From the NCBI GenBank assembly GCA_016292145.1, contig JAEFBA010000001.1, forward strand, positions 1-64,000: a DNA stretch of 64,000 nt. Direction: 5' to 3'. The notes beneath the pieces were generated by a model, which was given only the letters and a program-made list of their open reading frames with translations, did not search any database and was not told where the DNA came from. Numbering within the stretch: position 1 is the first letter of the stretch; every line of letters starts with the position of its first letter. This document shows positions 2,553 through 20,840 of the stretch, piece by piece. This DNA is from Saccharofermentans sp. Lineage in GTDB: Bacteria > Bacillota > Clostridia > Saccharofermentanales > Saccharofermentanaceae. Both the position numbers and the translations under genes were made by a program.

Positions 2553-3446
2553 TTATTTTCTCAATGTTTTCAGGAACTCTTCGTACGGGACATCGCAGGA
2601 ATAGTGAAGCGTCGAATGCATCGATTTGATCTGCATCGGCGTGCGCCAGTCTCCGAAATCCTGCTCGAGACGTTTCTCGTAGCCGGTCTGGCAAGGTATC
2701 ATGCGGTCCTCAAAAGGCAGATCGACCGTGCCGTCGAACCATTCCCTGTTCCAGATGAATCTCTTGTTGCCGGGGAATACAGTCACATAGCCGAGGCGCT
2801 TTGTTTCCGGGCCGACCTTGGTGGCGGTTTTAATGAATTTCCTGCAGATCTTGTCTGATGACGTGAATATGCTGCAGACCTTCCAAACGGCCTGAGCGAG
2901 CCTGCGCTTGGAGGTTTTGCGCGCGCCGTATAAAGATAATGCTCTGTCTGTCTGATAGCACTCGAAAAGGAACTTCAGGCGCTTCAGCCTGACCGTCTGC
3001 ATGGCAAAAGCGAGCTTGCCGTCCGGCACGTTATAGGCCGGGAAGATATCGACGAAGATGCCGCGGTTGCCGCCCGGGTTGTTCTCGATCTCCCATTCGG
3101 TGAAGCATGCGGTATCGCTTTTCCTGACCTTGAAAAGCCAGGGATAAAAGCCCTCTTCGGTCTCCCAGGTCTGAAGGAAGAACGGCGGCTTCAATTCGTC
3201 TTTGGCGACCTTGCAGAATTTCTCCAGGTCGTCCCTGTACATCTGGACGTCAAGGTCGTCATCCCACGGAATAAAACCTTTATGACGGACAGCGCCAAGG
3301 AGCGTGCCGCCGTCTGCATAATACGTGATGTTGTGCTTTTTGCAGACACGGTCGATCTCGTCCAGGATCTCCATCTGGACGGACCAGAGCTTTTTCATGT
3401 CAGCCGAGACTTTATAGCCGTCTCTAATCTCTTCTTCGAGGTTCAT
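2553..3446 (-). CDS. LicD family phosphotransferase
   Basis: YYADGGTLLGAVRHKGFIPWDDDLDV and FVDIFPAYNVPD, LicD signatures. Confidence 0.9.
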   Translation of the reverse strand: MNLEEEIRDGYKVSADMKKLWSVQMEILDEIDRVCKKHNITYYADGGTLLGAVRHKGFIPWDDDLDVQMYRDDLEKFCKVAKDELKPPFFLQTWETEEGFYPWLFKVRKSDTACFTEWEIENNPGGNRGIFVDIFPAYNVPDGKLAFAMQTVRLKRLKFLFECYQTDRALSLYGARKTSKRRLAQAVWKVCSIFTSSDKICRKFIKTATKVGPETKRLGYVTVFPGNKRFIWNREWFDGTVDLPFEDRMIPCQTGYEKRLEQDFGDWRTPMQIKSMHSTLHYSCDVPYEEFLKTLRK

Positions 3447-3466: not shown

Positions 3467-4360
3467 TTAAGCCTTAAGATTCTTAAGGTAGTCGCGGTAA
3501 TCGGTATCAACAGAGAAATTGAGACCGGAATGCAGCGATGTGCCCTTGACGAACTGGTGCCAGTCGCCGAACTGCGACGTCAGCACTTCGTCGTACATCT
3601 GAGGTCCCAAAATGGTTATGTCCTCGAAAGGAAGCTCAACGGTCTTGTCGAACCAGGTCCTGTCCCACACGAGCTTTTTGTTGCCGGGATCGAACGAGAT
3701 TACGCTGACTCGCCTGGTCTTATTCTTTTCGAGTTTACAGAGCTCCAAATACTGTCTGCAAAGCTTTTCCGGGCTCGTGAAGATGGAATGGAGCTTCCAC
3801 AAAAGCTGCTGCTTGGCCTTATATTTAGTCTTCTTGACGCCGAACCTGGTGATGGCCCTGTCTATCTGATAGCAGCTGTAGATCTTTCTGATCTTCTTTA
3901 ATTTCTTTACCTGTTTCGCGAAAACAGCATCGTCGTCAGGCACGTTATAGATCGGGAAGATATCGACAAAGATGCCTCTGTGACCTTCGGGACTCATCTC
4001 GAGCTCCCAGTCAGTAAAGCAGGTCGTTCCGCTCTTTCTGACCTTCAAGTGGAAAGGCGGATAGCCGGGCTCGGTCTCGCATGTCTGAAGGAAGTATGGT
4101 TCCTTCAATTCGTCCTTGCAGTATTCGATGAATTTCTCATAGTCGTCGATGTGCATGTCGAGATCGAAATCATCGTCCCACGGGATAAAGCCCTTATGTC
4201 TTACGGCGCCCAAGAGCGTGCCGCCGTCGGCAATGACGGTCAGATTATGTCTTTTGCAGATCTGATCGATCTGGTCGTAGATATCCAGGAACTCCGCCCA
4301 GAGCTTCTTCATGTCAGAAGAAATGAGATAATCGCATCTTACCTCTTCGTTAAGGTTCAT
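3467..4360 (-). CDS. LicD family phosphotransferase (paralog of previous)
   Basis: VIADGGTLLGAVRHKGFIPWDDDFDLDM, FVDIFPIYNVPD; same length (297 aa) as its neighbour. Confidence 0.9.
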   Translation of the reverse strand: MNLNEEVRCDYLISSDMKKLWAEFLDIYDQIDQICKRHNLTVIADGGTLLGAVRHKGFIPWDDDFDLDMHIDDYEKFIEYCKDELKEPYFLQTCETEPGYPPFHLKVRKSGTTCFTDWELEMSPEGHRGIFVDIFPIYNVPDDDAVFAKQVKKLKKIRKIYSCYQIDRAITRFGVKKTKYKAKQQLLWKLHSIFTSPEKLCRQYLELCKLEKNKTRRVSVISFDPGNKKLVWDRTWFDKTVELPFEDITILGPQMYDEVLTSQFGDWHQFVKGTSLHSGLNFSVDTDYRDYLKNLKA

Positions 4361-6139: not shown

Positions 6140-7036
6140 TTATTCCTCCGTATTGATCTTAAACTCTGCGCAGCTGTGAATGACACGGTCCTTCTCAGGC
6201 GGGAGTCTCATATAGTCTTTATAAAGGTTCTTCAGATATGAATCGTAATCTGAAGGTATCTTAAACATCTCACCGTTAAATTCTACCTCAATTAAGTCAG
6301 TAAAAAGAGACTTCTTAAATACTTCGCGGTTATAGCTTATCGCTGAAGGGACCGCAACGACGCCGGTCTCTTTCTTCGTGTGATCTAACTTGGAGCAGAT
6401 CTTAAGATAGAATCTCATGCCGAAGAAGATATTAAGAAGTCCGCCCATCCTGCGTCTTGCGGCATAGTATTTCCTGACTTCCTCATCAGTCCTGCCCTTC
6501 TCAAGGATAATGGGCGACGGATATTTGTAGTCGCCGATAAAGCTCGATGCGTGGAACGCGAAATCATAGAACTTGCCGATGAATTTCCTCTTTGAAGCTG
6601 ATGCGGGAACGTCCTCAATGATGAACACGTCGATAAACACACGCCTGTATTCGGCGGGGAGTCCTGCATAGACAACTTCGGTGAACACGGAATTCTTAAG
6701 GAAAAGCTTAGGCTTCTTGTTGGTATATTTGCCGTCCAGAGGCTCAACGAGATCATATTTATCAGTCATCTCGGAAAGCACAGCCTTCCTGAATTTAACG
6801 TATTCGGAGCGGAGCATCATGATGTCGAGATCATCGTCCCACGGGATAAAGCCCTTGTGACGGACGGCGCCGAGCATTGAACCGCCTGACAGAAGGAACG
6901 TGATGTCATGCTTCTCGCACACGCGCTTGATATCCATGAGCATGTCAAAAAGCGTCTGATGGAGAAGTTCGATCTGGGAATCCGAGAATACGAATTCGCT
7001 GAAGACTTTGGAATAGATGTCCTTCTGTTTTCTCAT
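6140..7036 (-). CDS. LicD family phosphotransferase
   Basis: FLLSGGSMLGAVRHKGFIPWDDDLDIMM; FIDVFIIEDVPAS; start reset to ATG 7036 with upstream AGGTGGGG. Confidence 0.85.
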   Translation of the reverse strand: MRKQKDIYSKVFSEFVFSDSQIELLHQTLFDMLMDIKRVCEKHDITFLLSGGSMLGAVRHKGFIPWDDDLDIMMLRSEYVKFRKAVLSEMTDKYDLVEPLDGKYTNKKPKLFLKNSVFTEVVYAGLPAEYRRVFIDVFIIEDVPASASKRKFIGKFYDFAFHASSFIGDYKYPSPIILEKGRTDEEVRKYYAARRRMGGLLNIFFGMRFYLKICSKLDHTKKETGVVAVPSAISYNREVFKKSLFTDLIEVEFNGEMFKIPSDYDSYLKNLYKDYMRLPPEKDRVIHSCAEFKINTEE

Positions 7037-7046
7037 CTTCCCCACC

Positions 7047-7865
7047 TTATGATTTGCGCAAAAGCGTCTTATACAAGAACTTGCGCAGCCAGTTGGGCGC
7101 AAGGGCACCTGCATATCTCATGTTCATTCGCTTGAAGTACTGCCACTTTGTTATAAAGCCCGTATCTCTCATGTACTTGAAAAGGGCTTTTACGGATTCT
7201 GCATACTTCTTGCCGCCCCTTCTCTTATACATGTCAGCGCCGGCGCGCATCCAAAGGAGCGATTCCTTGATGTTATAGCCTCTGAAGCCGTGCTGAAGAA
7301 CACGGACCCAAAGATAATAATCTTCAATGTGCGAAGGAATATAACCGCCGGACTCAATAATAGCGGTCTTCTTGTACATGATGCAGGGATGGTTGAAAGG
7401 GCATCTCTTTTTGCAGTACTCGTATACGTCTTCAGGCTCCTGAGGCATCTCGCGCCTGGATTCAATGACATCTTTTGTCTCAATGAATTCCTCGATCGTG
7501 CCGGATACAAGATCCACGTCGTCTCTTGATTCGAAGATCTTAAGCTGCCTCTCGCATCTGTCAGGATAAGAGATATCGTCAGAATCCATTCTGGCGACCA
7601 GTTCGTTCTTGCAGAGCTTGATGCCGATATTGAGAGCGTTTGCCAGGCCGCCGTTCTTTTCGAGCCTTACGACATGGAGCACATCGGGATGAGCCTTAAC
7701 ATTCTCATCGATGACCGTGTCCAATTCTTCATTTAAGGGACCGTCGCAGATAAGTACAAAATCGTTAGTCTGAACTGTCTGATTCCAGATACTGTCCAAA
7801 GCCTCACGGAGAAATTCTGCTTTTTCCTTGTGATAAACACTCATCAGAACAGAATAATTATCCAT
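7047..7865 (-). CDS. glycosyltransferase family 2
   Basis: YSVLMSVYHKEKAEFLREALDSIWNQT; ARMDSDDISYPDR. Confidence 0.85.
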   Translation of the reverse strand: MDNYSVLMSVYHKEKAEFLREALDSIWNQTVQTNDFVLICDGPLNEELDTVIDENVKAHPDVLHVVRLEKNGGLANALNIGIKLCKNELVARMDSDDISYPDRCERQLKIFESRDDVDLVSGTIEEFIETKDVIESRREMPQEPEDVYEYCKKRCPFNHPCIMYKKTAIIESGGYIPSHIEDYYLWVRVLQHGFRGYNIKESLLWMRAGADMYKRRGGKKYAESVKALFKYMRDTGFITKWQYFKRMNMRYAGALAPNWLRKFLYKTLLRKS

Positions 7866-12603: not shown

Positions 12604-13899
12604 TCAGATCTCGTCGATCAGTGTGATGATCTCCTTGATGGACATAAGTCTGTCATCGACTTCTTTTGCTCTGTGATACTTGAGGATGTCCTCAGCTGTC
12701 TTCTGCATTGCAGGGAAAGCTGATCTTGTAAGCTGGTTAGCATAGATAACTATGTTTACGCCGTGAGCAGCAAGCTCTTCTTCCGTGATCGTATTGAATG
12801 AAGAAGGAACAACAACGATAGGTGTTGTCTTATCGAATGCTCTGAACTTGTCGCAGAATTCAAGGATCTCTGCAGGATCCTTCTTGCGGCTGTGGATCAT
12901 GATGCCGTCAGCGCCAGCCTCAACGAATGCCTTTGCTCTTGCAAGAGCATCTTCCATGCCCTGCTCCAGGATAAGGCTCTCGATACGTGCGATGATCATG
13001 AAGTCATCAGTGAGCTGTGCTCTCTTGCCTGCAGCGATCTTGGCGCTCATCTCTTCGATGGTAGCCTGTGTCTGCTTGACTTCAGTACCGAACAGAGAGT
13101 TCTTCTTTAAGCCCTTCTTATCTTCGATGATAACAGCGGAAACGCCCATTCTCTCAAGTGAACGGACTGTATAAACGAAGTGCTCGGTAAGTCCGCCTGT
13201 ATCTCCGTCGAAGATGATCGGCTTTGTCGTAACTTCCATGATATCGTCGATCGTTCTGAATCTTGAAGTCATGTCTACGAGCTCGATATCAGGCTTGCCC
13301 TTTGCTGTGGAATCGCAAAGAGATGAGATCCACATAGCATCGAACTGCTCGAGCTTGCCGTCGTGCTCTACTACAGTCTTCTCAACGATAAGACCTGTAA
13401 GACCGCTGTGAGCTTCCATCGTCTTAACGATAGGTGTCATCTTGATAAGCTGTCTTAAACGCTTACGGCGGTATTCAGGCATGGCGAGCTTTTCTCTAAG
13501 CTGCATGTCGATCTTCTTGACCTTCTCGTTATATGTATAAGGAACGTCGATGAGTTCGCCGCCGTATTCCTTGAGGAGCTCTTCCACATGATCACGGATA
13601 GCGCTCTCAGGACCGTTCTTCCAGTTATCGCCGTGAATGACATAGTCAGGCTTGATCGAAGCGATAACGTCGTTATACATAAAGTCATTCTGAATGACGA
13701 CTTCGTCAACGCCGTCAAGTTCCTTATAAAGCTTGATCCTCTCTTCAAGCGAGATCGTAGGGAATCTATTGTATTTGATGAGAGCCTCATCAGTAAGAGC
13801 GCCTACGACAACGCGGCCATTCTCTTTAGCCTTCTCAATGATGTTCAGATGTCCTTCATGGATAACATCGGTGCAGAAACAAGTGTATACAGTCTTCAT
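12604..13899 (-). CDS. pepM: cytidylyltransferase-phosphoenolpyruvate mutase fusion
   Basis: N-terminal HEGHLNIIEKAKENGRVVVG...KPDYVIHGDNW; C-terminal PEP mutase signature EDKKGLKKNS and DGDTGG. Confidence 0.9.
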   Translation of the reverse strand: MKTVYTCFCTDVIHEGHLNIIEKAKENGRVVVGALTDEALIKYNRFPTISLEERIKLYKELDGVDEVVIQNDFMYNDVIASIKPDYVIHGDNWKNGPESAIRDHVEELLKEYGGELIDVPYTYNEKVKKIDMQLREKLAMPEYRRKRLRQLIKMTPIVKTMEAHSGLTGLIVEKTVVEHDGKLEQFDAMWISSLCDSTAKGKPDIELVDMTSRFRTIDDIMEVTTKPIIFDGDTGGLTEHFVYTVRSLERMGVSAVIIEDKKGLKKNSLFGTEVKQTQATIEEMSAKIAAGKRAQLTDDFMIIARIESLILEQGMEDALARAKAFVEAGADGIMIHSRKKDPAEILEFCDKFRAFDKTTPIVVVPSSFNTITEEELAAHGVNIVIYANQLTRSAFPAMQKTAEDILKYHRAKEVDDRLMSIKEIITLIDEI

Positions 13900-13902
13900 G
13901 AT

Positions 13903-15042
13903 TCAATTCTCCTTATAGATAACAGGGATCTGAATGTTATTCGTTCTCAAGGCTTCCCCGAAGACTTCGAAAAAGTCATTTATGTCCTTTACGTCGATCG
14001 CACCCAGAGCACAGAGTCTGAATGTGTTCGTGGAAGAGATCTTGCCGGGATAGATCGTAAAGCCTCTCTCGTAGCAGTAATCGTGGACCTTCTCAAAGCT
14101 CCAGTTCGGATCATCGGGATAGATCGCGGTGCTTACAAGACCTGCGCGGTCTTCAGGCTTAATGACCTGCTTAAAGCCGAGCTTATCAAGACCTTCGTTG
14201 ATGGCATTGAAAACTCTGGTGTGGCGTGCCCATTTGCCTTCCTCGCCTTCAGCCCAATATTCCTTAATGCCCTGAAGCGCTGCATAGATCGTCTGGACCG
14301 GAGGCGTAAAGTGCATCTCGCCGGTCTTTTCAAAGCAGTCGTACTGAAGGAAGAGATTGCAATAGTAGCTTCTCTTGGGATAATCCTTGGACTTCTCGAT
14401 GATGGCTCTGTTGCCTACGACAAAAGAAAGACCGGTCATTGCCATAAGACCCTTCTGGGCAGAAGCCATGCAGAAATCGATATTGTCCTCTTCGATGTTG
14501 ATGGGACGCATAGCGTATGTGCTTGTTGTATCAACAGTAAGGATAGCGCCGTATTTGTGAGCAAGAGCGCCGATCTCTCTTATCGGATTCAAGATACCCG
14601 TACCCGTCTCATTATGAGTCGTGTGAACGAGCTTGATGTCAGGATTATTCTTCAGTGTCTCCTCGACCTGCGCAAGATCAGGCTTACGGTCAACAGGGAA
14701 CTTCAGATCGATATGGGGAAGTCCGTAGTATTCGCAGATCTCAACGGCTCTCGTGCTGTAAGCACCGTTATTTACGACAAGGACCTTGCCGCCTTCAGGA
14801 AGCAGCGAATTGATGCAGACATCGATATTGATCGTGCCTGAACCGCAGAAAAGTACTGAAGTATATTTCTCAAGATCACCGTGAACGATCCTTACGAGAT
14901 CTTCACGAAGGCCCTTCATCAGTGATGCGAATTCTTTCTCTCTCGGACAGATATCCGGAACTACCTGTGCCATCTTAACCGTATCAGTCGTTGTGGACGG
15001 ACCGGGATTTAAGAGGACATTGCGCTTAACTATCGGCTCCAT
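13903..15042 (-). CDS. PhnW-like 2-aminoethylphosphonate aminotransferase (class V)
   Basis: NVLLNPGPSTTTDTVKMAQVVPDICPREKEF; SAQKGLMAMTGLSF PLP-lysine region; GGGAGG RBS before ATG 15042. Confidence 0.85.
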   Translation of the reverse strand: MEPIVKRNVLLNPGPSTTTDTVKMAQVVPDICPREKEFASLMKGLREDLVRIVHGDLEKYTSVLFCGSGTINIDVCINSLLPEGGKVLVVNNGAYSTRAVEICEYYGLPHIDLKFPVDRKPDLAQVEETLKNNPDIKLVHTTHNETGTGILNPIREIGALAHKYGAILTVDTTSTYAMRPINIEEDNIDFCMASAQKGLMAMTGLSFVVGNRAIIEKSKDYPKRSYYCNLFLQYDCFEKTGEMHFTPPVQTIYAALQGIKEYWAEGEEGKWARHTRVFNAINEGLDKLGFKQVIKPEDRAGLVSTAIYPDDPNWSFEKVHDYCYERGFTIYPGKISSTNTFRLCALGAIDVKDINDFFEVFGEALRTNNIQIPVIYKEN

Positions 15043-15132
15043 AAACAGCCTCCCCATGTTCAATTTACAAGTAAACCGAACACAATATTAGCACAATGGA
15101 TAATAAAAACAATAATATTTTGAGGCACAAGC

Positions 15133-15179: not shown

Positions 15180-16076
15180 TTATACGTCGTAACTCTTGTC
15201 TATGGCCTTCAATTCCTTGAATGAATCGATCTCGACGATGTCCTCATCAAAGCATTCCTTGACCGCAACTTTATAGTTGTCCTTGCGGTAAACAAGGGGA
15301 ACCTGCTCCCAGTATCTCTCGCGTCCGCCGGGTGTCTGGAATACGTCATCGATATCCTGTGAGAGCTTGTGACCGTCAGCTTCATTCCAGTAAGAGATTC
15401 CTACCATCTGCCAGCAGTCAAGGCCTCCCACCTTCTCTTCCGTGATGATGCCGTCCTTAACGGTAAAGCACCAGTCATCCGTACGATCCTTCTTTATCGC
15501 GAGGAAGTCAGAAGAATAGTGATATTTCTTGATTATCTCCGGATTGCTGCATACAAGGTCAGCCTCCAGAACATATGCATTCGAGAGCAGATATCTTGCG
15601 ACAAGAGCACTCGAAATGTTATTTGCATCATTATACGAAGGGTTCTCTAAGAACTTTATCATCGGATACTTATAAAGGAGCTGGTCGAACTGCTCAGCTA
15701 AATATCCTCTTACGATATAGATCTCTTCAATGCCTGCAGAAAGACATGCATCGATAAGGGTATCGATAATGCGCTTGCCGTTAACTCTTACGAGCGGCTT
15801 AGGAGTATTAAGAGTGATGGGTACCATTCTGGAACCGAATCCGGCTGCAATAAAAACAGCTCTCTTGGCTCTGTATGGCTCTAAAGCATCCAAACCTTTC
15901 TTAGTGATCTTGCTCTTATCTATAAAGCCCTGGTCTGCAAGTTCCTTGCTGAGCTTATTGACTGTCCCGAGAGAATAACCTGTGATCTTTTCCAGATCTC
16001 TTTGGGAATAAGCTTTATCGGAAGTTGCCAAAGCCTCTAAGATATCGAATTGCTTTTTTGTAAGTTCAGTTGCCAT
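15180..16076 (-). CDS. winged-HTH + LicC/PntC-like nucleotidyltransferase fusion
   Basis: N-terminal LTKKQFDILEALATSDKAYSQRDLEKITGYSLGTVNKLSKEL; then RAVFIAAGFGSRMVPITLNTPKPLVRVNGKRIID. Confidence 0.85.
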   Translation of the reverse strand: MATELTKKQFDILEALATSDKAYSQRDLEKITGYSLGTVNKLSKELADQGFIDKSKITKKGLDALEPYRAKRAVFIAAGFGSRMVPITLNTPKPLVRVNGKRIIDTLIDACLSAGIEEIYIVRGYLAEQFDQLLYKYPMIKFLENPSYNDANNISSALVARYLLSNAYVLEADLVCSNPEIIKKYHYSSDFLAIKKDRTDDWCFTVKDGIITEEKVGGLDCWQMVGISYWNEADGHKLSQDIDDVFQTPGGRERYWEQVPLVYRKDNYKVAVKECFDEDIVEIDSFKELKAIDKSYDV

Positions 16077-16086
16077 ATAAGCCTCC

Positions 16087-18372
16087 TTAAGAGTTACCTA
16101 ATATCTTATGATACAGTAAATCGATCGAATTTCTATCAAGTGCTATAGGATGGTTCTTTAACCTGTCTACATTAACAGAAGACGCGAGCAATATAAACTC
16201 CTCTTCCGTAGCTTCAGGCGTCGACATGTTAAGTCCGGAATACAAATCTTCAAGATATTCGCAGACCTTATGAGGATCACTGTAGCCGAATGTCTCAGCT
16301 ATATAATCCATGACAGACTTTAAATAGTCCTCTCCTCTGGGGTCGATGCATTTGTCCATGTTTTCGAGCATCCACGGGAACAATGACTTAACGCAGAGCA
16401 TCGCAGAATGTCCGTGAGCAAGACCATAAAGAGACGTAAGCTTATAGCACATCGCATGTCCTGCAGTAGTCTGCGTGATATTGATCGCTTTGCCGGCCTT
16501 ATAAGCTGCCATGAGCATCTCAAGATTTGCCTCATCGTCGTTAGCAAGATATCCGTCCATGTTATCAAGGATCAGATGAATTGCTTCACTCGCATAAGCC
16601 TTGCTCTCACCGGTGCTGTTAACAGACCATATCGATTCAACAGAATGGCACAGGCTGTCTAACATCGTGCACTTTCTCTGATAAAGCGGCAGCGTCTTAA
16701 GAAGGCTGCTGTCCATGAGAACCGTCTTAGGAATAATGCTCTCGTGAGTGACCGACTGCTTTGCGCCGTTATAGTAAATTACAGCATATCTTGTAGCTTC
16801 AGAACCGGAACCTGCAGTCGTAGGAACAGCAAGGAACGGAATATCGTTGGGCTTTATCTTCTGCTTAAGGAAATTTACAGATTGATCCATGTTCGAAAAG
16901 AGCTTAATGCACTTTGCAACGTCCATTGCAGAACCGCCGCCTATCGCAATAAGCGCTTCGCAGGATTCCTTGTTAAATAGCGAGACGCCTTCTACAACGA
17001 AATCGTAAACCGGGTTAGGCGTGAAATCGCTGAACCTTACGATCTTTACGCCGAGTCTCGCCTCAACACTGTCGAAATAGCTCTTGATCGGCATAGCATC
17101 CAGAGCGGCACCACATACGAGCATTATCGATCTTGCGCCTGTTGAAGCTATCCACTTATCGAGCTTTTCATAGTTGTTCTCAGCAGTGATTATCCCGTCT
17201 ATTGCCTTCCAGGCATTTAATTCATTGACTCTGTTTTCAGGATCCGTGATCTCGCCGCTGAAAGTGTTTTCGATGGACTTATACTTGGCATCTGCAGAAT
17301 AAGGGAATTCGACAAGCTTTCCGCCGTATTCAGCAAGGAGCTTAATTACCTCTTCCCTTATGGGTTTCTGGTAACCAGTAACCCAGTTATCGCCATGGAC
17401 TACGATGTCAGGCTTATATTTCCTGATGTTGTCAGCATAAGAGAGCGTATCCTGGTCGACTACCCTGTAAACGCCAGCGATATTTGCCACAAGGGCTTTT
17501 CGCTCGGATCTCGGTACAATCGGAGCACGCTTATAGCTTGCAACAACTTCATCGGAAAGAACGCCGACCGTGAGCTTACCGAGCATTGCGGCCTTCTTGA
17601 TTATAGAGATGTGTCCGCCGTGGATAACGTTCGTTGACAAGGACAAATAAACGGATCTGTTCTCTACTTCCTTAAGCCTTGCCGACACGACAGCAAGATC
17701 ATCAGGATTATCGATCTCTGAGCACAGTCTGTCCTTAACATCCAGAGCTGCAATATTGCATGCACCATCCAGTTCATTAAGAGCGTTCTCGGCATAGCAC
17801 TTGCGGTTATCGTTTTCGCAGAATTCGATTATCTTATCAAGCCAGATCTTCCAGTCATCTTTCTTGAGCTTATATAGCGCCTGGGCTTCCATCGCGTTTT
17901 CGAAAAAGTTAATGCCCACCTTTTGGACGAAGCCGTCCTTGATCACGGCCTTAAAGTCCTTTTCGGGCAGCGGGATCGTAGATGAAACTTTCATGCAGCT
18001 GGTCTCACATTCGATGATGTCTGATAAGACTGACCATTCGAAAACGAGGTCTCCGTGCATTAGGATGATATCGTCATCCAAATATTCCCTGGCACAGTAA
18101 ATACTGTAGATATAGTTGGTTTCAGCATACAAAGGGTTGTTAACGAACGTGATGTTCATGGGGAGCCCTAAGAAGTTACAGTAATCGATAAGGACCTGGT
18201 CGAAATATCCGGTCGTCATTACGACATCGGTTATGCCAAGGCTCAAAAGAAGTTTTAATTGTCTTGATAGGATAGTCTCTGTGGCAGATACTTCCGTCAT
18301 GCACTTAGGGTGTTCAGATGTCAGAACGCCCATTCTGTGGCCCAGGCCGGAATTAAGAATTAATGCCTTCAC
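16087..18372 (-). CDS. three-domain fusion: LicC-like nucleotidyltransferase + HxGH cytidylyltransferase + iron-containing alcohol dehydrogenase (candidate phosphonoacetaldehyde reductase)
   Basis: MKALILNSGLGHRMGVLTSEHPKCMTEV; NVIHGGHISIIKKAAMLGKLTVGVLSDE...KPDIVVHGDNW; AIGGGSAMDVAKCIKLF...PTTAGSGSEATRYAV...GLAHGHSAM. Confidence 0.85.
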   Translation of the reverse strand: MKALILNSGLGHRMGVLTSEHPKCMTEVSATETILSRQLKLLLSLGITDVVMTTGYFDQVLIDYCNFLGLPMNITFVNNPLYAETNYIYSIYCAREYLDDDIILMHGDLVFEWSVLSDIIECETSCMKVSSTIPLPEKDFKAVIKDGFVQKVGINFFENAMEAQALYKLKKDDWKIWLDKIIEFCENDNRKCYAENALNELDGACNIAALDVKDRLCSEIDNPDDLAVVSARLKEVENRSVYLSLSTNVIHGGHISIIKKAAMLGKLTVGVLSDEVVASYKRAPIVPRSERKALVANIAGVYRVVDQDTLSYADNIRKYKPDIVVHGDNWVTGYQKPIREEVIKLLAEYGGKLVEFPYSADAKYKSIENTFSGEITDPENRVNELNAWKAIDGIITAENNYEKLDKWIASTGARSIMLVCGAALDAMPIKSYFDSVEARLGVKIVRFSDFTPNPVYDFVVEGVSLFNKESCEALIAIGGGSAMDVAKCIKLFSNMDQSVNFLKQKIKPNDIPFLAVPTTAGSGSEATRYAVIYYNGAKQSVTHESIIPKTVLMDSSLLKTLPLYQRKCTMLDSLCHSVESIWSVNSTGESKAYASEAIHLILDNMDGYLANDDEANLEMLMAAYKAGKAINITQTTAGHAMCYKLTSLYGLAHGHSAMLCVKSLFPWMLENMDKCIDPRGEDYLKSVMDYIAETFGYSDPHKVCEYLEDLYSGLNMSTPEATEEEFILLASSVNVDRLKNHPIALDRNSIDLLYHKILGNS

Positions 18373-18482: not shown

Positions 18483-20840
18483 TTATTCCTTGAACTTGAC
18501 CCTGATGTAATTCAGGACACAGGACTTACCGGATTTATTTGTAACCTTGAACTCACAATCATTAAGCGTCTCGGTTACCGTAAACTCATATTCAATCCTG
18601 TTATCAGTATACGTAACTGCCTTACCCTCTACAGGCTTCATTTCTCCGCCCTGTTTATAGGTAACGCCAAATTCCGTCCCTTCAAGGCCGGTTCCTTCAA
18701 TTTCCATAATATAAGTGCCGGGAACCAGGGTCATGTATGGTCCGAAGGAGACGCCGTCAGCATCAAGTTCACGCGTTCCTTTATTGTCAGATGCGCCGGA
18801 TACAAACCGGGAACTGAAGAAGTCACTGTGATAAACGTATTTCTTGGTTATCAGTAAACTGTCGATATGGCAGTAAGAAGAACCGTTGTTATGTGCGGTT
18901 ATCTTCAATGTCTTCGTTTGCTCACCGAGTTTGAACTTCAAGACCACATGATCACCGCTTCTTGATACGACAGTACCAGAGATCTCCTGAGGTCTGTTCC
19001 AAGTAGTCTTTTTATAATCCTTTACGATCACGGGATTATACTCAACACCAAAATCACCCTGATCAAGATCTGATCCTTGTACCGTCACATAGTACCAATC
19101 CGGATAAAGCTCAACATTTCTGGTCTTATATTCCTTACCGGGAGCGATAGTATAATTGTCGGAAATAGTAATATTTCCTATCAGGCCGTAGAGTTCATCG
19201 TAACTGCTGAACCCGTAAACATAGTACCTCTTTACGAGTTTTTCACTGTCAAAGACATCCCAGTTCACTTCTTCAGGTGTCTCATAGATAATGTGCTGGT
19301 CAGGAACATACTTTATCAGTCTGCTGTCACGTCTTTGAGCTTCAGATAATACCCAGAAAACTTTTCCTTCGGGATGCTCACAGACATGGGATTTTTTCTG
19401 AAGCCATTCAAATGTGCGGTCGTTGTTTTCGCCTTCATTTAATTCATCGCTGCTTATCCAGACATCAAGATATCCGTTTGAAAGTTCAGTTAAGACATTG
19501 CCGTTCCAGAAAGTGGCATAGCCGTCCCTGTAACCGTTCTCTGTGAGGAATACTGCGATCTTCTTAAGCTCAGCAAGGTCATCCCTCTCGGATAGAGTCT
19601 TATACCTGCAAGCACCTGTAATCAACATCAATCCGCAAAACATGATCACGGGTAAATATCTCATATTGATCTTGTTCCTGATCTCTTCAAACAAAAAGAA
19701 AGTACAAGGGAGAGTCATCCATATAAGGACAAGGCTGTGCCGGTCTTTGAAGATGATATCCGAAAAGATGAAAACAAGAACATATACCAGATATGAAGCA
19801 AGTGTCAGCAATGAGAATCTGAAATACAGATCTTTCTTTTTTCTCTTTAATCCCACGATAAGTGAGACAACGAAAAGCGCAAACCATACAAAGCAGACGA
19901 TGTTATGAACGAGATTTTCGGAAAAGACCTTACCTTCCGTATATCCGAAATTCTGGAAATAAAACGCTATAACATCTTTTAACCTGTTAATGTTGAACGA
20001 TTTGAAATTGATATCATAGCTAAAGTAATCATAGTAAAGATGAAGTACGGTCGAGTTGATAATAAACCCGGCAAGGCCAAAGACGAAGGCCAAAACAGAA
20101 CCCAATAAAGGTGATGAGTCTGCTTTTATTGATGCTTTAACACATTTTCCGATGCTCTTTTCACCATTCTTATAGTTTTCGATACTATCCAAAACAAGAA
20201 GAATAACAGCCGTAACAAGAACAGGAAGATAAACGATAAGTATCTGCCTCGGGCCCCCAAGGCCTGACAGAAAAGCCAATAAACAAAGGACTGTAAGAAG
20301 AATGAAGGATAAAAGTTTCTTCCCTTTTAGATTCCTCAGGCTCTCAAGTATCGCAACCGTCATGATCGAGATCACGATGTGAGGATAGTAATATGCGCCC
20401 TTTAGCACGATCTCGAAATAATGAACTGAGGTCGGAATGAGCAACATTGCAAGTCCCAACCAGGCATATTTCTTCAGTTTGAAAACTCTGAAAAGCCAAT
20501 ATGCGGATACGAGCATAGTTACGGTCAGCAGTATATCGGATACGATTCTGATATTATGCCAGTTATTGAAGAACTTAAAAAAGAAAGCATAAACGATCTG
20601 CGTATTAAAGACTCTGAGTTCTGTCGAATAGAACCAGTTCGGAGTAATGAGGCGGTTCTCTTCTGCGAGCATTTTTGCAAGCATTAACTCACTCGTATCG
20701 TCAGAATTTAAAAACCTCTCGATATTAACGTTCAGAAACCAGAACAGAAAACAAAAGCACAGACAGAACAGGATAAAGGATACGACTGTAAATATCCTTT
20801 CGTTTCTGTCGTTGCTTTTGAGACTGTTAATAGGTGTCAT
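18483..20840 (-). CDS. multi-TM GT-C-like membrane protein with duplicated C-terminal beta-rich module
   Basis: Many hydrophobic segments over the first ~450 aa; soluble C-terminal half with two related modules. Confidence 0.6.
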   Translation of the reverse strand: MTPINSLKSNDRNERIFTVVSFILFCLCFCFLFWFLNVNIERFLNSDDTSELMLAKMLAEENRLITPNWFYSTELRVFNTQIVYAFFFKFFNNWHNIRIVSDILLTVTMLVSAYWLFRVFKLKKYAWLGLAMLLIPTSVHYFEIVLKGAYYYPHIVISIMTVAILESLRNLKGKKLLSFILLTVLCLLAFLSGLGGPRQILIVYLPVLVTAVILLVLDSIENYKNGEKSIGKCVKASIKADSSPLLGSVLAFVFGLAGFIINSTVLHLYYDYFSYDINFKSFNINRLKDVIAFYFQNFGYTEGKVFSENLVHNIVCFVWFALFVVSLIVGLKRKKKDLYFRFSLLTLASYLVYVLVFIFSDIIFKDRHSLVLIWMTLPCTFFLFEEIRNKINMRYLPVIMFCGLMLITGACRYKTLSERDDLAELKKIAVFLTENGYRDGYATFWNGNVLTELSNGYLDVWISSDELNEGENNDRTFEWLQKKSHVCEHPEGKVFWVLSEAQRRDSRLIKYVPDQHIIYETPEEVNWDVFDSEKLVKRYYVYGFSSYDELYGLIGNITISDNYTIAPGKEYKTRNVELYPDWYYVTVQGSDLDQGDFGVEYNPVIVKDYKKTTWNRPQEISGTVVSRSGDHVVLKFKLGEQTKTLKITAHNNGSSYCHIDSLLITKKYVYHSDFFSSRFVSGASDNKGTRELDADGVSFGPYMTLVPGTYIMEIEGTGLEGTEFGVTYKQGGEMKPVEGKAVTYTDNRIEYEFTVTETLNDCEFKVTNKSGKSCVLNYIRVKFKE

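Follow-up and report, generated by a model that had tools for sequence, protein, structure and literature searches.

A recurrent nucleotidyltransferase-cytidylyltransferase-alcohol dehydrogenase fusion as a probable hydroxyethylphosphonate branch module of surface phosphonoglycan pathways

Nucleotidyl activation dominates bacterial phosphonate pathways, and the reason for several nucleotidyltransferases per cluster has been left open (Rice et al. 2019, PMC6697681). Two of them can be joined to PEP mutase (PepM, Ppm) in a single chain: the NT-CT-Ppm triple fusion is represented by 42 proteins, 2.8% of Ppm (Rice et al. 2019, PMC6697681). PntC family members tested so far use AEP, and in PntC both Glu104 and Glu196 are positioned to contact the AEP amine; the product of the Fom1 CyTase is the CMP derivative of hydroxyethylphosphonate, CMP-HEP (PMC6697681). 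Polysaccharide-bound HEP has been described in marine organic matter (PMC9381506). In the sulfoacetaldehyde reductase BkTauF, T257 and F265 are essential for activity (PMC6616044).

The window analysed here, 64,000 nucleotides from the rumen bacterium Saccharofermentans sp., harbors a gene (16087-18372; 761 aa, GTG start) in which a LicC/PntC-type nucleotidyltransferase (NT) and a Fom1-type cytidylyltransferase (CT) are followed by a metal-type alcohol dehydrogenase (ADH). An earlier note had proposed a three-domain fusion in one open reading frame at this place, leaving the strand unstated. The gene lies on the minus strand, the plus strand of the interval being riddled with stop codons, and Pfam bears out the domain order, with matches to NTP_transf_3 (9.7e-7, residues 3-115), CTP_transf_like (2e-12, residues 248-342), Fe-ADH (PF00465, 8e-35, residues 394-554) and ADH_Fe_C (2e-17). 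The motifs quoted in the note are all present: SGLGHRM from residue 8, HGGH at 251-254 and HGDNW at 326-330, and in the ADH part GGGSAMD at 478-484 and GLAHGHSAM at 650-658. A PEP mutase domain (PF13714) has no match anywhere in the 761 residues. Most relatives start with ATG. An AlphaFold2 model made with 30 homologues (mean pLDDT 87.8, pTM 0.53) predicts three folded domains, their mutual placement being without confidence. Its pLDDT drops below 50 at residues 372-390, a flexible stretch between CT and ADH (linker at 17200-17247, minus strand, about residues 376-391). Substrate channelling by proximity within such a chain is possible.

The source of the window is a draft genome, 84.9% complete and in 150 contigs, and the earlier note had allowed for a sequencing or assembly artefact. 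An assembly error or frameshift is nevertheless a negligible explanation in view of independent copies of the fusion: the NT-CT-ADH order recurs in one open reading frame, across many assemblies, at 15 of the 80 best loci among about 85,000 species genomes scanned, and the full-length fusion is present in 16 of 115 family genomes searched, with one more partial copy. Those 15 loci include a non-MAG record, that of the cultured isolate Ruminococcaceae bacterium YRB3002. The dN/dS ratio is low along the whole chain, far below 1 for NT, CT and ADH each where dS could be estimated.

The fusion gene stands in a same-strand series that places it beside the AEP pathway. It is followed after 10 nt by LicC2 (15180-16076, minus strand), an HTH plus LicC/PntC-type nucleotidyltransferase that keeps the equivalent of PntC E104 (VLEADL) and is the probable AEP cytidylyltransferase. 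Next come the AEP transaminase (AEPT; 13903-15063, minus strand; TIGR03301 above cut-off) and, 3 nt further, CT-PepM (12604-13899, minus strand), which combines an N-terminal cytidylyltransferase-like domain with PEP mutase (TIGR02320 above cut-off); the genome yielded no other PepM. Ppd is encoded outside the window, elsewhere in the genome (C143). Judged by this context, the fusion gene represents the HEP arm of the operon and its neighbours the AEP arm, a relationship missed by the earlier note. The rest of the window contains a bacterial sugar transferase, glycosyltransferases, GDP-fucose-type genes, a Wzy-like ligase, a Stealth protein and three LicD-family transferases, all of the latter on the minus strand (2553-3446; 3467-4360, a candidate acceptor-side enzyme for a CMP-phosphonate; 6140-7114, with the match at 6218-6919). 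These sugar-transfer and LicD genes identify the locus as a polysaccharide cluster. A set of three LicD transferases in one cluster is consistent with two or more CMP-activated head groups. Immediately upstream of the fusion, a membrane protein of 785 aa (18483-20840, minus strand), which has no Pfam or NCBIfam match, is kept in the closest relatives (L010, L011, L015).

The ADH domain (16090-17199, minus strand, about residues 392-761) has intact metal ligands, D572, H576, H639 and H653, which align with those of FucO. The earlier note proposed that it is of the phosphonoacetaldehyde reductase type, an assignment favoured by gene neighbourhood, sequence relatives, active-site residues and the survey of genomes. 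Segatella copri DSM 18205 has three consecutive genes for NT-CT-PepM, Ppd and an ADH, the last of which, annotated as phosphonoacetaldehyde reductase, is 44% identical to the ADH of the window; among the PepM plasmid records none besides S. copri has another named phosphonoacetaldehyde reductase. A CDP-glycerol glycerophosphotransferase-family gene (L161:12282-13475) follows the reductase in S. copri and is a possible acceptor-side alternative to LicD. The closest solved structure, by both sequence and fold, is BkTauF 6jko (Foldseek E 1.9e-24, TMt 0.85), whose T257 and F265 correspond to T635 and Y643. This Thr and Tyr pair is invariant in the 80 of 80 family ADHs covering the site, and recurs in four divergent ADHs (24-30% identity) that adjoin CT-PepM. 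Several PepM-linked ADHs (among L163, L165, L166, L161 and L027) have Gln at the second metal-ligand position, like BkTauF, and in the L166 protein Leu replaces one metal His in the alignment.

Metal-ADHs are promiscuous and difficult to annotate, and none of the curated ADH families claims this domain, TIGR03405 and ErcA scoring equally and far below their cut-offs; it might thus be an ordinary fermentative dehydrogenase of the propanediol, butanol or ethanol type joined to the nucleotidyltransferases by chance. Such an accident is very improbable, given that the ADH adjoins NT-CT-PepM in dozens of genomes. The comparison with propanediol- and butanol-type enzymes called for in the earlier note was run in part: the domain groups with PepM-linked ADHs (support 100), including the annotated S. 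copri reductase, apart from E. coli FucO, EutG and YqhD and from the other two metal-ADHs of the genome. FucO, EutG and YqhD, moreover, have Leu/Asp and His at the pocket positions. Taken together, operon, annotated relative and Thr/Tyr pocket make the domain very probably a phosphonoacetaldehyde reductase.

Domains were mapped on each of the 80 loci that gave the best matches in the genome scan. There, 63 loci encode NT-CT-PepM in one open reading frame, 15 encode NT-CT-ADH, and at two NT-CT and ADH are encoded by neighbouring genes. Downstream of NT-CT-PepM there is typically an ADH (55 loci, main cluster) and Ppd (51), often with LicD near (30), and AEPT is mostly missing in the vicinity. 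The earlier note had found two nucleotidyltransferases in one chain hard to explain. Their history accounts for the pairing, since NT and CT were already joined in the NT-CT-PepM triple fusion. On this reading of the architectures, the two met before the fusion gene existed, and the ADH, usually the next gene, took the place of PepM. The direction, loss of PepM and then fusion, is suggested by the prevalence of NT-CT-PepM and by the existence of intermediates. NT-CT|ADH and NT|ADH both occur as adjacent-gene states, and in L043 and L081 the ADH starts almost immediately after the NT-CT stop codon. Two genomes (G008 and G052) have no Fom1-like CT, with NT near ADH and a separate CT-PepM close by; at these loci (L135, L136) NT and ADH are separate genes, with LicD between them in L136. 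A 619-aa open frame in G008 that resembled an NT-ADH fusion lacking CT is actually two genes split by TAA. Other families encode NT, CT-PepM and ADH in three separate genes.

On the concatenated NT, CT and ADH tree the fusions need five state changes, of which at least three are forced by well-supported branches. A single fusion clade is rejected with the three domains together (lnL difference 165, AU p = 3.8e-8), and is not rejected on NT alone (p = 0.11); the trees come from fast searches, with branch support from SH-aLRT alone and ambiguous rooting. The lineage of the window has as its sister the unfused NT-CT|ADH arrangement of G070. Linkers vary in length and sequence between fusion lineages, and a search in them for a remnant of PepM found short, variable segments with no clear PepM derivation. 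The concatenated tree and the differing linkers indicate that the fusion arose more than once. The literature searched contained no account of NT-CT-ADH. The architecture is a real, recurrent and repeatedly evolved rearrangement of known phosphonate-nucleotidyltransferase fusions.

The distribution of the partner enzymes was followed in 43 genomes of the family, searched for PepM, AEPT and Ppd. All except G055 have a single PepM, and Ppd is present in 41 of the 43. AEPT occurs in none of the 18 NT-CT-PepM genomes; in the 17 genomes with the fusion (16 full-length, one partial) PepM is encoded apart, as CT-PepM, and 15 of them have AEPT. It is lacking in the fusion genomes G049 and G084 and in six unfused genomes without PepM in the chain. 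The association of AEPT with architecture (Fisher p = 4e-8) is a strong pattern among related genomes, which provide only 2-3 phylogenetically independent pairs, a number without power. The fusion thus looks like a HEP branch beside the AEP pathway, with PepM and Ppd shared. Our reading is that a HEP operon may shed PepM and become a branch module once PepM and phosphonoacetaldehyde (PnAA) are available from an AEP operon.

Both nucleotidyltransferases of the chain have intact motifs. The NT domain (17659-18372, minus strand, residues 1-238) keeps D108, E195, E219, D221, R13 and K23, among which D108 and D221 are the conserved metal-binding Asp/Glu of PntC (PF12804, 9.7e-7). The PntC consensus GXG(T/S)RX4-8PK reads GLGHRMGVLTSEHPK in NT, with His replacing T/S; relatives have S, H or T. 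The CT domain (17248-17658, minus strand, residues 239-375; HxGH at 251-254, HGDNW at 326-330) has the Fom1 CyTase (5x3d) as its best PDB match (3e-38, 52% identical across 123 aa). In Fom1, PYTPG is followed by a GIS stretch; the fusion CT lacks this stretch and reads PYSADAKY, and it is missing likewise from the NT-CT-PepM relatives and from CT-PepM of the window. Across 80 proteins the catalytic motifs of NT and CT are invariant or nearly so. Judged by dN/dS ratios of about 0.03-0.05, both domains are under purifying selection. The suggestion in the earlier note that one might be inactive is contradicted by these intact motifs and ratios, which rule out a dead domain; its other suggestion, that one acts on a non-phosphonate headgroup, is one to which nothing points.

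The substrate of NT can be approached through the residues that contact the AEP amine in PntC. In a profile alignment with Tde-PntC, E196 corresponds to E195 of NT and is kept, whereas E104 corresponds to H106. His106 is found in 132 of 132 NTs examined, and LicC2-type proteins have Glu at this position (in five, the pattern search stopped short of the site). Through this change NT would better accommodate an amine-free substrate such as HEP than AEP, which fits, without proving, a preference for HEP; with E195 retained, NT may also accept an amine substrate. A further fusion of about 600 aa, in which a LicC-like nucleotidyltransferase (38-43% identical to NT over 120 aa) is joined to a class I/II aminotransferase fold, occurs at L144:1534-3336 and in many family genomes; the copies checked have Glu at the H106 position, and the architecture resembles FrbH. 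A division of labour in which NT produces CMP-AEP and CT produces CMP-HEP, with both head groups activated by one chain, is unlikely. The AEP use of tested PntC family members (PMC6697681) and the AEPT of most fusion genomes speak for it; all 18 NT-CT-PepM genomes, however, are without AEPT and hence without obvious AEP, and the PntC-like LicC2 beside AEPT in the window keeps the Glu where NT has His.

A more serious competitor, tentative though still plausible, is that CT makes CMP-HEP as in Fom1, with NT serving separately on another phosphonate or phospho-group, or in binding or regulation. The likeness of CT to Fom1 argues for CT as the CMP-HEP maker: its identity to the Fom1 CyTase is 52%, compared with 39% for the CT on the window's own PepM, and the Fom1-like type goes with ADH, the other with AEPT, in most sampled loci. 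PepM-fused CTs fall into at least two types (window 12604-13899, loci L145-L160), a Fom1-like one (SYKR, HGDDWxxGFQ) that accompanies NT and ADH and another (RYNRFP, HGDNWxxGPESAIR) that accompanies AEPT and LicC2; AEP clusters, too, contain both kinds of nucleotidyltransferase. However, G008 and G052 retain NT and ADH without a Fom1-like CT, and no locus with sufficient flank had a Fom1-like CT and ADH without NT. The invariant motifs of NT and the strong selection on it also speak against this competitor. NT is the slightly better candidate, because it remains with ADH even where no Fom1-like CT is present. The chance that NT makes CMP-HEP is put at even, CT in this role is a lesser possibility, and the remainder falls to both or neither. 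A bolder proposal, advanced tentatively, is that NT represents a HEP-specific PntC/LicC substrate class (Glu-to-His106) tied to the reductase, the CT that accompanies PepM in both HEP and AEP pathways having a second, undescribed step.

The fusion is likely to serve a surface phosphonoglycan pathway as its HEP branch module, derived from the known NT-CT-PepM|ADH operon. Of this proposal, the sequences themselves show the domain make-up, the intact motifs of catalysis, the purifying selection, the gene context, the intermediate states and more than one origin; which substrates are used, in what order, with or without channelling, and which nucleotidyltransferase transfers CMP is what we infer. 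CT-PepM in the window and Ppd elsewhere in the genome would produce PnAA, the ADH domain would reduce it to HEP with NAD(P)H, and a nucleotidyltransferase domain of the same chain would convert HEP to CMP-HEP, from which a LicD-type transferase may place HEP onto the glycan. In parallel, AEPT and LicC2 would draw on the same PnAA pool to yield AEP and CMP-AEP. Genomes with a second PepM, usually the one of an AEP operon, would have lost the PepM domain from the chain, and NT-CT then joined to ADH. The core idea of the earlier note, reduction of PnAA to HEP followed by its CMP derivative, is probably correct, with operon context, homology, active-site residues and survey pointing the same way. 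The fusion is found mainly in genomes where PepM is already provided by an AEP pathway, and the proposal predicts that many rumen clostridia carry HEP on surface glycans, some of them HEP and AEP. If NT is HEP-specific and CT has such a second step, phosphonyl tailoring of each head group would involve two distinct nucleotidyl transfers, with the fusion acting at the branch point in competition with the AEP transaminase for the shared PnAA pool. A natural experiment separating the roles is offered by lineages that have kept NT with the reductase although CT, PepM or both have left the chain.

Among known systems, the NT-CT-Ppm triple fusions (Rice et al. 2019, PMC6697681) share with the fusion an N-terminus in which NTP_transf_3 precedes CTP_transf_like, and the NT-CT-PepM loci found here are 66-77% (NT) and 58-72% (CT) identical to it. 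They end in PEP mutase, whereas the fusion has instead the alcohol dehydrogenase that is usually the next gene. Fom1 CyTase (5x3d), of the fosfomycin pathway, has HxGH in common with the fusion CT and is 52% identical over 123 aa. In Fom1 this domain is fused to PepM and belongs to an antibiotic context; in the fusion it is joined to ADH, PepM being a separate gene, in a surface-polymer context, and the GIS stretch of Fom1 is absent. BkTauF (6jko/6jkp) has the metal-ADH fold, the essential Thr and an aromatic residue at F265 in common with the ADH of the window, at 23% identity over the structural alignment. It differs in its Q196 ligand, which is His in the window ADH, and is a stand-alone enzyme of taurine metabolism with a sulfonate substrate, sulfoacetaldehyde being the sulfonate analogue of PnAA. 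Phosphonoacetaldehyde reductase (PhpC; AlpJ, cd08182) is assigned the conversion of PnAA to HEP, the reaction proposed for the ADH, and the S. copri homologue carries its name. Like the fusion, Tde-PntC (6pd1/6pd2; Rice et al. 2019), PntC fused to AEP transaminase, joins an enzyme making a phosphonate from PnAA to a LicC-like cytidylyltransferase. The partner there is a transaminase yielding AEP, and in the fusion a reductase that would yield HEP; Glu104 of Tde-PntC is replaced by His106, and the fusion has an extra Fom1-type CT domain.
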